Source: a virus
DNA length: 25,389 nt
IMG/VR virus record: IMGVR_UViG_3300046820_000576
Location: 1-25,389 of that record
Strand: one strand, 5' to 3'
Shown here: positions 2,357-6,675 of the stretch, piece by piece
Layout: each line of letters starts with the position of its first letter
Numbering within the stretch: the first letter of the stretch is position 1
Notes under the pieces: generated by a model
Told to the model about the DNA's origin: nothing
What the model saw: the letters and a program-made list of their open reading frames with translations, nothing else
Database searches by the model: none
Position numbers and translations under genes: made by a program

Positions 2357-3124
2357 ATGGCTCGTAAAGCTCCAATTAAAACAGTTGATAATGAACATAT
2401 TGAGACAAAAAATCCAAGACCTATTAGTAATTCGTTGAAGATTAGATTAGATGATTTAAAAACATTCGACCCTCTTACTGAAAATCAAAAATTATTTTTT
2501 GAAGCGTATAAGCGTGGTGATTATTTTGTAGCACTACATGGTGTAGCTGGAACAGGTAAAACTTTCTGTGCTTTATATAAAGCAATTGAGGAAGTTCTTG
2601 ATAAGTCAAATCCATTTGATAAGATTATCGTAGTTCGTTCAGCAGTTCAATCTCGTGAGATCGGACATCTTCCTGGAGACGTTAATGAGAAGATGGAAAT
2701 TTATGAACAGCCATATCGTCAGATTTGCGAAACATTATTTGGACGCAAAGACGCATGGGATAGATTAGAAGAACAACATCATATCTCGTTTATCTCAACA
2801 TCGTTCATTCGAGGTATGTCTTTCGATAATGCTATCATCATCGTTGATGAGATGCAGAATTTAACATATGAAGAGATCGACACAGTTATGACTCGTGTTG
2901 GTCATATGTCAAAGATTATTTGGTGCGGAGACTACCGTCAAACTGATCTAAATAAACGTAAGAGTGATGTTAGTGGAATTTTAAAGTTCTTTGACATCGC
3001 ACAACATATGCGTGCATTTACCCGTATCGAGTTTACTGTTGATGATATTGTTCGTTCTTCATTAGTGAAGGATTATATTTTAGCTAAACTAAGATACGAA
3101 GACTTCGAGGACAATAAGAAATGA
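2357..3124 (+). CDS. phoH: PhoH-like P-loop ATPase
   Basis: 255 aa. Walker A is GVAGTGKT at residues 62-69 and Walker B is AIIIVDEMQN with D164/E165. The RSAVQSREIGHLPG segment and the IWCGDYRQTDL segment after Walker B are typical of the PhoH family, an RNA-helicase-like SF1-fold ATPase common in marine and freshwater phages. Length is that of a single PhoH domain plus a short N-terminal extension. The start is preceded by AAAGGA. The stop overlaps the endolysin start (ATGA at 3121). Its role in infection is not established. The link to phosphate stress is known for some bacterial homologues only. Confidence 0.93.
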   Translation: MARKAPIKTVDNEHIETKNPRPISNSLKIRLDDLKTFDPLTENQKLFFEAYKRGDYFVALHGVAGTGKTFCALYKAIEEVLDKSNPFDKIIVVRSAVQSREIGHLPGDVNEKMEIYEQPYRQICETLFGRKDAWDRLEEQHHISFISTSFIRGMSFDNAIIIVDEMQNLTYEEIDTVMTRVGHMSKIIWCGDYRQTDLNKRKSDVSGILKFFDIAQHMRAFTRIEFTVDDIVRSSLVKDYILAKLRYEDFEDNKK

Positions 3125-3741
3125 TAACAGTAGAACAGTTTAGTCACCTGTTTCCTAGAAACACTGACCCACAGGGTTGGGTTGATTCTATGAACGAGGT
3201 GTTCCCAACATATGACATTAATACACCACAACGAATAGCTGCCTTTCTTGCGCAGTGTGGTCATGAGTCTGGTGGTTGGACAGTATTTGAAGAAAATCTT
3301 AACTATTCAGCTAAAGGTTTGAATAGTATTTTCAAGAAGTATTTTCCTACACTTGAATCAGCATTACCTTATGAGCGTAAGCCAGAAATGATTGCCAATA
3401 AGATTTACTGCAATCGTATGGGTAATGGTAGTCCAGAATCTGGAGATGGTTGGAGATTCCGTGGTCGTGGCCCGATTCAATTAACTGGTCGTAGCAATTA
3501 TACTCAGTTCGCTAAAGATATGTTTGAGAACTGGGAAGAAGTTGTTGAGAATCCAGATTGGGTAACTTACGACAAAGACTTTGCTCTTATGTCCGCCATT
3601 TGGTTCTGGAATAAAAATGGTTTGAACAAAGAAGCAGACGCTGGCGATATTAAAACTATGACTCGTAAAATCAATGGTGGATACATTGGTTTGGAGGATA
3701 GAATAAAACATTACAATGAAGCAATACATTTACTGACATAA
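3121..3741 (+). CDS. GH19 chitinase-like endolysin
   Basis: 206 aa, a single glycoside hydrolase family 19 domain that hydrolyses peptidoglycan (or chitin-like) beta-1,4 glycosidic bonds at lysis. The catalytic acid is E49 in AQCGHESGGW. The second acidic residue is E57 or E58 in FEENLNYSA. The substrate-cleft motif RGRGPIQLTGRSNY spans residues 114-127. There is no signal peptide, so a holin is expected to be needed; a holin-like gene lies at 13257-13685. The stop touches the next start (TAATG). The gp5-like protein in this window carries a second, divergent GH19 domain with the same QLTGR motif. Confidence 0.92.
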   Translation: MITVEQFSHLFPRNTDPQGWVDSMNEVFPTYDINTPQRIAAFLAQCGHESGGWTVFEENLNYSAKGLNSIFKKYFPTLESALPYERKPEMIANKIYCNRMGNGSPESGDGWRFRGRGPIQLTGRSNYTQFAKDMFENWEEVVENPDWVTYDKDFALMSAIWFWNKNGLNKEADAGDIKTMTRKINGGYIGLEDRIKHYNEAIHLLT

Positions 3742-4417: not shown

Positions 4418-4618
4418 ATGTTATATGTTGATTATAATTTTGAACTAAATGATAATATAATTATATTCGATCCTGACTTAAAGTTGACTACTCAAACTAA
4501 TGAAAAGCAGTGGGGTAATCTACCAAATAGTTGGAAAGAAGGAGATATGTTTAAACTTATCACAGGTGCTAACGGTAACGTGACTTTGGTTAAAGTTACA
4601 ACTGATGGTAAGATGTAA
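4418..4618 (+). CDS. Hypothetical protein, 66 aa
   Basis: Start chosen at the ATG at 4418 because GGAG (4407-4410) lies 7 nt upstream. A TTG at 4388 is in frame but sits on the previous stop and on a promoter hexamer. The protein is small, acidic to neutral and rich in Asn and Asp, with a beta-type C terminus (GNVTLVKVTTDGK). No family recognised. The stop is immediately followed by the acceptor half of the permuted tmRNA, so the two may share a transcript. Confidence 0.5.
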   Translation: MLYVDYNFELNDNIIIFDPDLKLTTQTNEKQWGNLPNSWKEGDMFKLITGANGNVTLVKVTTDGKM

Positions 4619-4686
4619 AGAATTGTTGTAATCCCTTCAAAACGAAGGCATGTTGGACGTGGGTTCGATTCCCACCTGCTCCACCA

Positions 4687-4823
4687 AAAGAGATTTATGG
4701 AAAACTTAGTTTTATTGTTGTTGATTGTTGTACTACACGTTTATTGGATTTATTCTGTATTGACGTATGATTGGAGCGACTTTGATAATGATCAAGAACA
4801 AGCTAAGAAAGATCTTTTTTGAT
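4687..4823 (+). other. Intervening segment of the permuted tmRNA precursor
   Basis: These 137 nt lie between the encoded CCA end of the acceptor piece (4684-4686) and the mature 5' G at 4824. In known permuted tmRNAs this segment is excised by tRNA-type processing (RNase P for the 5' end, 3' nucleases), leaving two RNA pieces. Here 126 of its 137 nt are occupied by an ORF. Confidence 0.85.
4697..4822 (+). CDS. 41-aa single-span membrane protein inside the tmRNA intervening segment
   Basis: ATG at 4697 to TGA at 4820-4822. The N terminus is a strong hydrophobic segment (ENLVLLLLIVVLHVYWIYSVL, about residues 2-22), followed by an aromatic boundary and an acidic/charged tail ending KKDLF. A short GAG core lies 4 nt before the ATG, which is a weak Shine-Dalgarno. 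It starts 10 nt after the CCA end and stops 1 nt before the mature 5' end of the coding piece, so it fits the excised segment almost exactly. The TM-plus-charged-tail pattern is not what random AT-rich sequence usually gives. Function unknown. It was below the usual ORF length cutoff. Expression would compete with, or precede, tmRNA processing. Confidence 0.6.
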   Translation: MENLVLLLLIVVLHVYWIYSVLTYDWSDFDNDQEQAKKDLF

Positions 4824-4908
4824 GGGGCAGACCTGGTTTCGACAGCGTGAGATAGTGGAGACGGCAACACGGTAGGCGATGACCGTAAATCAAGCAAATC
4901 AAGTAAAC

Positions 4909-4941
4909 GCAAACGATGAAGTTTACGCATTGGCAGCTTAA
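4909..4941 (+). other. tmRNA tag-peptide reading frame
   Basis: Resume codon GCA at 4909-4911, then ten sense codons in all encoding ANDEVYALAA and a TAA stop. With the Ala carried by the charged tmRNA the added tag would be AANDEVYALAA. The E. coli tag is AANDENYALAA, so only one residue differs and the C-terminal LAA recognised by ClpX is kept. T4904 and A4905 match the conserved -5/-4 bases needed for resumption. Confidence 0.92.
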
Positions 4942-5007
4942 CCGCTGACTAGGGTTTCGGTTGGTTTCCTCGTAACAGAATAACCAACCACTTACATTAA
5001 GGAAAAT

Positions 5008-5283
5008 ATGAATATCGTACCATTAAAGAATAAAGTTTTAGTAGCTGAGAACGTAAGTGAACGTAAAACTGAATCTGGAATTATCCTAGACGGAGCTAAC
5101 TCAGTTGCTATGTCTAAAACAGCAACTGTTTTATCTATCGGTCCAGATGTAGTTGACGTTAAAGTCGGAGATGTAATTTATCTAGAATGGCCAAAGGGAC
5201 AGATGGTAAAGATCGGCGATGCACAGCGAGTTATTATTGAAGATAAGTATATTGTAGCTGTATTAGAAAAGGAGACAGTATGA
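5008..5283 (+). CDS. groES: GroES-family co-chaperonin (functional analogue of T4 gp31)
   Basis: 91 aa, the normal length of GroES. The N terminus IVPLKNKVLVAENVSERKT and the following SGIILDG correspond to the GroES N-terminal strand and mobile loop (about residues 17-31) that contacts GroEL. The VLSIGPDVVDVKVGDVIYL and KIGDAQRVIIEDKYIVAVL segments match the remaining beta-barrel. No GroEL is in the window, so it would cap host GroEL, probably to fold the major capsid protein as T4 gp31 does. AAGGA precedes the ATG. It lies 17 nt after the last tmRNA hairpin, so it may share that transcript. The stop overlaps the next start (ATGA). Confidence 0.93.
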   Translation: MNIVPLKNKVLVAENVSERKTESGIILDGANSVAMSKTATVLSIGPDVVDVKVGDVIYLEWPKGQMVKIGDAQRVIIEDKYIVAVLEKETV

Positions 5284-5600: not shown

Positions 5601-6161
5601 ATGCGAGTATATAAAAATATATTCCTCATAATCTTAATGATGATTACTGTTACAGCAATTGCTGTTAATTATGGTAATCAATATACTAGATTGTTTGATG
5701 TTAAATATACAGATTTAACAAAAGACGCAAAGAAACAAGTAGACTGCCTAGCAGAAAATATATACCACGAAGCTGGTTCTGAATCTGAACAAGGTAAGGT
5801 AGCTGTGGCTATGGTAACATTAAACAGAGTGCAAGATCCAAGATATCCGAAAGATATTTGCTCTGTGGTAAAACAAAAGGTAAACTATACATGTCAATTC
5901 TCATGGTTCTGTTCTGCACCAAAGTTAAATAGAAACAGTGACATGTTTAAAGATTCGATGCAGGTTGCATTGCATGTTTACGCTAATTATGAAAATTTAA
6001 AAGATATAACTCATGGTGCTTTATTTTATCATGCTGATTATGTGAATCCTAATTGGAAATTAAACAAGACTACCGTAATTGGAAGACATATATTTTATAA
6101 GGAAGGTGGCACAAATAATGATGCAAAAATTAAATCTACAACTAAAGGAAGACCAATCTAA
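5601..6161 (+). CDS. SleB-type cell-wall hydrolase with N-terminal signal anchor
   Basis: 186 aa. Residues about 7-25 are a hydrophobic signal peptide or membrane anchor (IFLIILMMITVTAIAV). The catalytic region begins at DCLAENIYHEAGSESEQGKVAVAMVTLNRV (from about residue 48), the hallmark of the SleB/CwlJ hydrolase family, which cleaves peptidoglycan as a lytic transglycosylase or muramidase-like enzyme. The C-terminal GALFYHADYVNPNW segment is also typical. AAAGGAG precedes the ATG. Export implies action from the periplasm without a holin, which would make it a second lysis enzyme beside the GH19 endolysin, or one that modifies the wall early. The last 44 nt overlap the ClpP gene. Confidence 0.85.
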   Translation: MRVYKNIFLIILMMITVTAIAVNYGNQYTRLFDVKYTDLTKDAKKQVDCLAENIYHEAGSESEQGKVAVAMVTLNRVQDPRYPKDICSVVKQKVNYTCQFSWFCSAPKLNRNSDMFKDSMQVALHVYANYENLKDITHGALFYHADYVNPNWKLNKTTVIGRHIFYKEGGTNNDAKIKSTTKGRPI

Positions 6162-6675
6162 ACATTCGTTCTTCTTATTAATGGAAGATATTTCTTTATC
6201 TACATGTAAGAATGCAGTTGAGTGGATTTTAGAAGCAAACTTTTCCGAAGAACGACCATCGATGTTGAATCTGATTGTATGTTCTCCAGGTGGAGATTTG
6301 AACGCAGCTTTTGCTTTAGTTGATACTATGCGTGGGTCTGCCATTCCAATCAGAACAATTGGTCTTGGTCAAATTGCATCAGCTGGTTTATTAATTTTTA
6401 TTAGTGGCGATAAGGGACAAAGAATTCTTACTCCAAATACATCGATTTTATCACACCAATATTCATGGGGTGCTTTTGGTAAAGAACATGAATTGTTCGC
6501 TACAATTAAAGAGTTCGATTTAACAACTAAGCGTATGATTGCACATTATAAAAAATGCACTGGCATGGCTGAGCAAAATATTCGTGATGTTCTATTACCA
6601 CCACAGGATGTTTGGTTAAGTGCAACTGAAGCAAAGAAACATGGGTTATGTGATGACGTTAAAGACCTTAAGTAA
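6118..6675 (+). CDS. clpP: ClpP-like serine protease with intact catalytic triad
   Basis: 185 aa from ATG 6118 (ATG 6121 is the alternative). An AAGG-AGGTGG stretch (6099-6109) precedes both. Catalytic Ser is S88 in GQIASAG, His is H113 in LSHQYS, and Asp is D164 in QDVWLSATEA, aligning with D171 of E. coli ClpP (DRFLSAPEA). The oxyanion-hole SPGGD (56-60) is kept. Length and motifs fit a ClpP-fold peptidase. No Clp ATPase is visible, so it would have to work with host ClpX/ClpA, be ATPase-independent, or act on peptides or the prohead. Its nearness to the tmRNA (1.1 kb) suggests a link to LAA-tag degradation. It overlaps the upstream hydrolase by 44 nt. Confidence 0.88.
   Translation: MMQKLNLQLKEDQSKHSFFLLMEDISLSTCKNAVEWILEANFSEERPSMLNLIVCSPGGDLNAAFALVDTMRGSAIPIRTIGLGQIASAGLLIFISGDKGQRILTPNTSILSHQYSWGAFGKEHELFATIKEFDLTTKRMIAHYKKCTGMAEQNIRDVLLPPQDVWLSATEAKKHGLCDDVKDLK

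Follow-up and report, generated by a model that had tools for sequence, protein, structure and literature searches.

Permuted two-piece tmRNA genes are already known from phages. The T4-like phage Melnitz carries a two-piece tmRNA that was reported as alpha-type and as controlled by a glutamine riboswitch, and the authors of that study put the number of distinct two-piece tmRNAs in phages at 53 (PMC9004378). The 2025 tmRNA database comprises 79 phage tmRNAs and 11,946 permuted genes; the part of that article covered here also describes homing endonucleases encoded by group I introns within tmRNA genes, as well as a tRNA-Ala in the intervening sequence of one nominally archaeal permuted tmRNA, and it holds no mention of protein genes in the intervening sequences of permuted tmRNAs (PMC11915505). 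Such genes were not found in the further open-access papers that we searched. A permuted tmRNA in a phage is known, and, as far as the literature could be searched, a protein gene nested in its intervening segment has not been described before.

We analysed a whole IMG/VR virus record of 25.4 kb, referred to below as the window, together with a set of comparison loci (L-numbers). Like Melnitz, the window represents a T4-like phage with a permuted tmRNA, but its tmRNA is of the beta type, in contrast to the alpha-type, riboswitch-associated tmRNA of Melnitz. In the Melnitz record (46013-46345; L352), the intervening segment is 142 nt long and contains a Shine-Dalgarno-like GGAG and an open reading frame (ORF; MFKWLSKTRLVVITRDYF...) extending into the 5' piece; no CDS is annotated within the tmRNA. 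The intron-borne homing endonucleases and the tRNA-Ala (PMC11915505) resemble the phage arrangement in that a second gene lies inside a removed segment of a tmRNA gene. The phage arrangement differs in having neither an intron nor an endonuclease: unrelated small proteins, many of them hydrophobic, are encoded in the permuted form's own intervening sequence. The Pseudomonas Samunavirus phages SM1 and UF_RH6 also possess a permuted tmRNA with a long segment (112 nt) which, unlike that of the window, contains no comparable ORF.

The SM1 and UF_RH6 genes (L347 and L346) are not annotated as tmRNA in the stretches of the records that we viewed. Pseudomonas itself has a one-piece ssrA, so the present host is unlikely to have been the source of the tmRNA in these two phages.

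Anatomy, surroundings and origin of the permuted tmRNA

A first-pass annotation of this DNA had proposed a permuted two-piece tmRNA carried by a T4-like phage and suggested a search with the Rfam permuted models as a check. In this search (Rfam cmscan), both models scored above their curated cut-offs: the entire beta_tmRNA model RF01850 matched positions 4572-4996 with 161.8 bits (E 1.8e-50; cut-off 84), and tmRNA_permuted, RF04321, matched 4624-4941 with 150.2 bits (cut-off 47). ARAGORN likewise predicted a permuted tmRNA, with the tag ANDEVYALAA. The pairings and positions proposed in the first pass for the acceptor stem, helix 2, the CCA end, the U-A element, the tag and its stop all agree with the sequence. 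In the acceptor stem, GGGGCAG (4824-4830) pairs with CTGCTCC (4676-4682), which is followed by an encoded ACCA (4683-4686), while helix 2 is formed by CAGCGTG (4843-4849) and CATGTTG (4649-4655) with two G-U pairs. The U-A element stands at -5/-4 relative to the resume codon, and the tag frame ends, as is typical of tmRNA, in LAA-type hydrophobic residues and a stop (TAA, 4939-4941), which lies within the loop of a CAGC/GCTG stem. The 3' tRNA-like part with its CCA lies upstream of the 5' part, and the two share the acceptor stem and helix 2, which is the layout of the permuted type. The acceptor stem is fully paired in 84 distinct tRNA-like domains of phages, with compensatory changes at positions 4-6, a count that is to be read with ARAGORN's own preference for paired stems. 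At the level of sequence, positions 4624-4990 were thus confirmed as a complete beta-type permuted two-piece tmRNA. The features of the locus are collected in Table 1.

Table 1. Features of the tmRNA locus and its conserved neighbours in the window
Feature	Position	Strand	Basis
Cell-wall hydrolase flanking the tmRNA region: GH19 endolysin	3121-3741		
tmRNA 3' tRNA-like piece, ending in encoded CCA	4624-4686	+	RF04321/RF01850 alignment, ARAGORN
5' arm of the 11-bp helix extending the acceptor stem; contains weak Shine-Dalgarno-like AAGAGA, ends right before ATG	4686-4696	+	pairing analysis
Intervening segment, 137 nt, presumably removed and not in the mature two-piece RNA	4687-4823	+	between CCA and acceptor 5' strand in ARAGORN/Rfam models
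Nested 41-aa ORF with a hydrophobic stretch at the N-terminus (MENLVLLLLIVVLHVYWIYSVLTYDWSDFDNDQEQAKKDLF); TGA at 4820-4822	4697-4822	+	family members both nested in tmRNAs and free-standing; dN much lower than dS
3' arm of the extension helix: last codons and T of TGA	4810-4820	+	pairing analysis
tmRNA 5' (mRNA-like) piece: acceptor 5' strand, tag, downstream helix 4959-4966/4982-4989; 3' end approximate	4824-4990	+	sequence pairing, Rfam, ARAGORN
Tag reading frame, ANDEVYALAA*	4909-4941	+	ARAGORN
GroES/gp31-like co-chaperonin, conserved neighbour	5008-5283	+	PF00166, phrog_3188
Cell-wall hydrolase flanking the tmRNA region: Hydrolase_2	5601-6161		
ClpP-like protease, conserved neighbour, ~1.1 kb downstream of the tmRNA	6118-6675	+	PF00574

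The genes around the tmRNA encode, in order, PhoH, the GH19 endolysin, a PD-(D/E)XK exonuclease, then, beyond the tmRNA, the GroES/gp31-like co-chaperonin, a cell-wall hydrolase, the ClpP-like protease and gp32, followed by T4-type baseplate genes. The baseplate genes, the matches of the neighbouring genes and the nearest isolate, which is Melnitz (42% for a 609-aa baseplate wedge protein), support the view that the carrier is a T4-like phage. In the IMG/VR relatives of the co-chaperonin locus, the gene order is kept and most have a permuted tmRNA at the same place; those records that were looked up span 62-357 kb, most of them 160-175 kb. A ClpP-like gene was found at 86 loci, 79 of which have a permuted tmRNA, at a median distance of 1.9 kb. 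The positions of Ser and His in the window's ClpP-like protease resemble those of ClpP, and the enzyme might degrade tagged proteins. The association of the phage tmRNA with this conserved co-chaperonin and ClpP-like neighbourhood suggests that the phage may control how unfinished proteins are rescued and turned over. No T4 late promoter (TATAAATA) was present in the window, and sigma-70 promoter matches were no more frequent than expected by chance. Three loci with co-chaperonin relatives (L005, L007 and L041) contain no tmRNA, and arrays of 14-24 tRNA genes are present instead.

To compare the locus with bacterial genes, we used a control sample of 299 genomes from the same phylum as a bacterial match. 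Permuted tmRNAs were present in 87 of them (89 matches, median span 216 nt). The tmRNA of the window shares with the beta-proteobacterial permuted tmRNA (RF01850) the full-length model match, the tag and the pseudoknot layout. However, the sampled bacterial segments are only 4-47 nt long and contain no gene (28 delimited by ARAGORN, of 5-47 nt, and two further segments of 4 nt), in contrast to the ORF-bearing 137 nt of the window; in the longest bacterial span, of 332 nt, the insert is noncoding and repeat-like. Several bacterial segments also have paired ends, so the hairpin is probably ancestral, its loop having been filled by the phages. The beta-type match would fit the first-pass proposal of capture from a host that has a split gene, but no donor was found, and the closest of the sampled bacterial tmRNAs is 69% identical to that of the window. 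Exact-pattern searching for a donor or host returned one contig, from an uncultured bacterial bin, which may itself be phage-derived because its tmRNA has its own ORF-bearing segment.

We put the probability at about 80% that the locus is a beta-type permuted tmRNA whose intervening segment was enlarged from a short bacterial-type hairpin into a slot for small genes, with the ORF translated from the precursor; the coding and the pairing are read from the sequence, and we infer the expression and the processing. The first-pass annotation had recognised the permuted tmRNA in a T4-like phage, but had overlooked the protein gene inside its intervening segment.

The extension helix and the proposed mechanism

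The ORF of the window begins with ATG at 4697 behind a weak Shine-Dalgarno sequence (AAGAGA) and fills the intervening segment, with a single base between its TGA and the acceptor stem. Its protein family, here family A, was gathered by an alignment search of IMG/VR. Family A genes are nested inside the segment in the window and in L003, L091, L299, L300 and L305, and stand free upstream of the tmRNA in L288, L290, L295, L306/L310, L054/L307, L108/L308 and others. In the loci named here with free-standing copies, the tmRNA's own intervening segment contains no such gene.

Nearly all phage segments have paired ends: the A of CCA, together with the 10 bases that follow it, is matched by the 11 bases preceding the final GAT. 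The resulting helix of 11-12 bp extends the acceptor stem and, where the segment is filled by a gene, joins the leader of that gene to its last codons. Across 122 distinct segments, a mean of 10.4 of the 11 positions were paired, with several pair types at each position. The contiguous pairing amounted to 10.9 bp in ORF-bearing segments vs. 3.8 bp when the ends were swapped among loci, and to 8.5 vs. 3.2 bp in segments without an ORF. The predicted fold of the window's segment and acceptor stem had a z of -5.2. Among the nested family A copies, those filling the segment have TGA as their stop codon and a pairing of 12-13 bp, whereas the free-standing copies stop with TAA or TAG (with TGA once, in L296) and have a pairing of 5-8 bp. 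In L305, the nested family A gene has an early TAA stop, yet a 13-bp helix is still present, suggesting that the helix is kept beside the coding and not because of it.

Under the favoured reading, a single transcript would carry the 3' tRNA-like piece, the 41-codon ORF of the putative membrane protein and the 5' mRNA-like piece, and folding of the acceptor stem with its 11-bp extension would unite the two pieces. The segment would then be excised by RNase P and 3'-end nucleases, and the two pieces would work with the host SmpB as tmRNA, as is expected from established tmRNA biology. Because the folded precursor pairs the leader of the ORF with its own last codons, the ORF would most likely be translated before the helix's 3' arm has been synthesised. 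Some of the gene families in the slot also exist as free-standing genes immediately upstream of the tmRNA.

The same pairing allows a stronger interpretation, in which the helix is a translational switch that hides the start site, so that protein synthesis and tmRNA maturation would be mutually exclusive for each transcript. In nearly all ORF-bearing segments, but not in free-standing copies, the Shine-Dalgarno sequence and leader are paired with the gene's own last codons, and the stability of the predicted fold points the same way; however, noncoding segments and several bacterial hairpins share the helix, and its primary role may therefore be RNA processing alone. We regard such a switch as a serious possibility that nevertheless has the odds somewhat against it. 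With the same reserve, we tentatively propose that the phage permuted tmRNA may be a dual gene, one transcript of which gives rise to a small protein or, alternatively, to a tmRNA: the helix that primes RNase P cleavage would lock the ribosome-binding site, and with only a single base between the stop codon and the RNase P site, translation and maturation would compete. If this is true, translation and RNA processing could be studied on one short stretch in a tractable system.

The nested gene and the use of the slot across phages

Several lines of evidence indicated that the nested ORF is a real gene conserved at the protein level. First, between the window and L091 the nested ORF showed a dN of 0.14 and a dS of 2.2 (about 2), with 9/1/18 differences at the three codon positions, suggesting purifying selection on the protein in this pair of family A genes. 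Second, homologs exist as genes outside the RNA (L288, L290, L295, L306, L307, L308 and others). This gene-level reading is supported by sequence comparison. Judged by eye, the hydrophobic stretch suggests that the product is probably a small membrane protein, and a role in lysis, as a putative lysis partner, is possible because two cell-wall hydrolase genes lie close by. The window ORF matched neither Pfam nor PHROG, and the other intervening ORFs tested gave no nuclease match and no Pfam match above the cut-off; a homing endonuclease or known mobile gene was rejected, as no recognisable nuclease domain was found in any of them. The proteins of family A and of the ORFs in L140 and L301 had zero matches in 50,697 phage records, and thus no annotated relative there.

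Using ARAGORN on viral loci, we obtained 114 distinct permuted tmRNAs, and a later set comprised 128 distinct intervening segments of at least 25 nt, including a few bacterial and published-phage loci. In 29 of the 128, the segment is filled by an ORF that begins in the first 25 nt and ends within the segment, although the weakest one or two of these ORFs (L103, and L267 in that frame) could have arisen by chance. We did not count as genes the ORFs, present in 28 distinct segments, that continue into the 5' piece, some of which may be chance frames. The slot is occupied by at least 15 unrelated protein families (that of the window and at least 14 others), ranging from hydrophobic peptides of 22-27 aa to soluble-looking proteins of 39-64 aa, and many of the ORFs have a clear Shine-Dalgarno sequence of the AAGGA type (e.g., TAAGGAAATTAATG in L174). 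Some of the relatives came from pattern searches requiring TGATGGGG or CCACCA-SD-ATG, which biases the proportion of segments with an ORF; in a less biased set, 4 of 17 distinct non-empty segments bear an ORF. Families B and G are found inside the slot in some phages and outside it in others, and in L027, where B occupies the segment, the G gene directly adjoins the tmRNA on its upstream side. For the short ORFs of family H, purifying selection was not clear.

One could suppose that the tmRNA of the window is of the usual phage permuted type, that its long segment is noncoding and that the ORF is a chance frame, taking its TGA from the conserved TTTTGATGGGG junction. Many relatives do have noncoding segments of 50-140 nt, the TGA does belong to the junction, and chance does produce short ORFs with this end: in 500 shuffles that kept dinucleotides and segment ends, the comparison over all lengths was less decisive (21 observed vs. 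a mean of 9 and a maximum of 20). However, eight ORFs of at least 40 aa end exactly at the TGA vs. a shuffle mean of 0.08 and a maximum of 2, and neither a dN far under dS with a third-position bias nor free-standing homologs with other stop codons would be expected of a chance frame, which makes this explanation very improbable. Together, these comparisons of sequences support the view that the intervening segment is a slot used repeatedly by unrelated small phage genes. If so, phage genes would repeatedly find a place in the discarded segment of a non-coding RNA, which would also explain why gene finders miss them, none being annotated in the Melnitz tmRNA.

Such tmRNA pieces can decay: L296 contains an orphan tmRNA 3' half (2925-2990) with a family A gene immediately after it, 1.9 kb upstream of a complete tmRNA that has another nested gene, and this half is likely the fossil of a duplication and loss. 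That the window's tmRNA is similarly a decaying or non-functional relic merely flanking a real small gene is nonetheless highly unlikely, given that the beta model is matched over its full length (161.8 bits), that the tag is intact and that the stems show compensatory changes across many phages.

A tentative identification of the cysteine-rich ORF of L301 as a BFD-type [2Fe-2S] protein was dropped, since it had no Pfam match. This locus is one of five (L082, L301, L116, L223 and L257) whose intervening ORFs, two of them cysteine-rich, read into the 5' piece without using the junction TGA.
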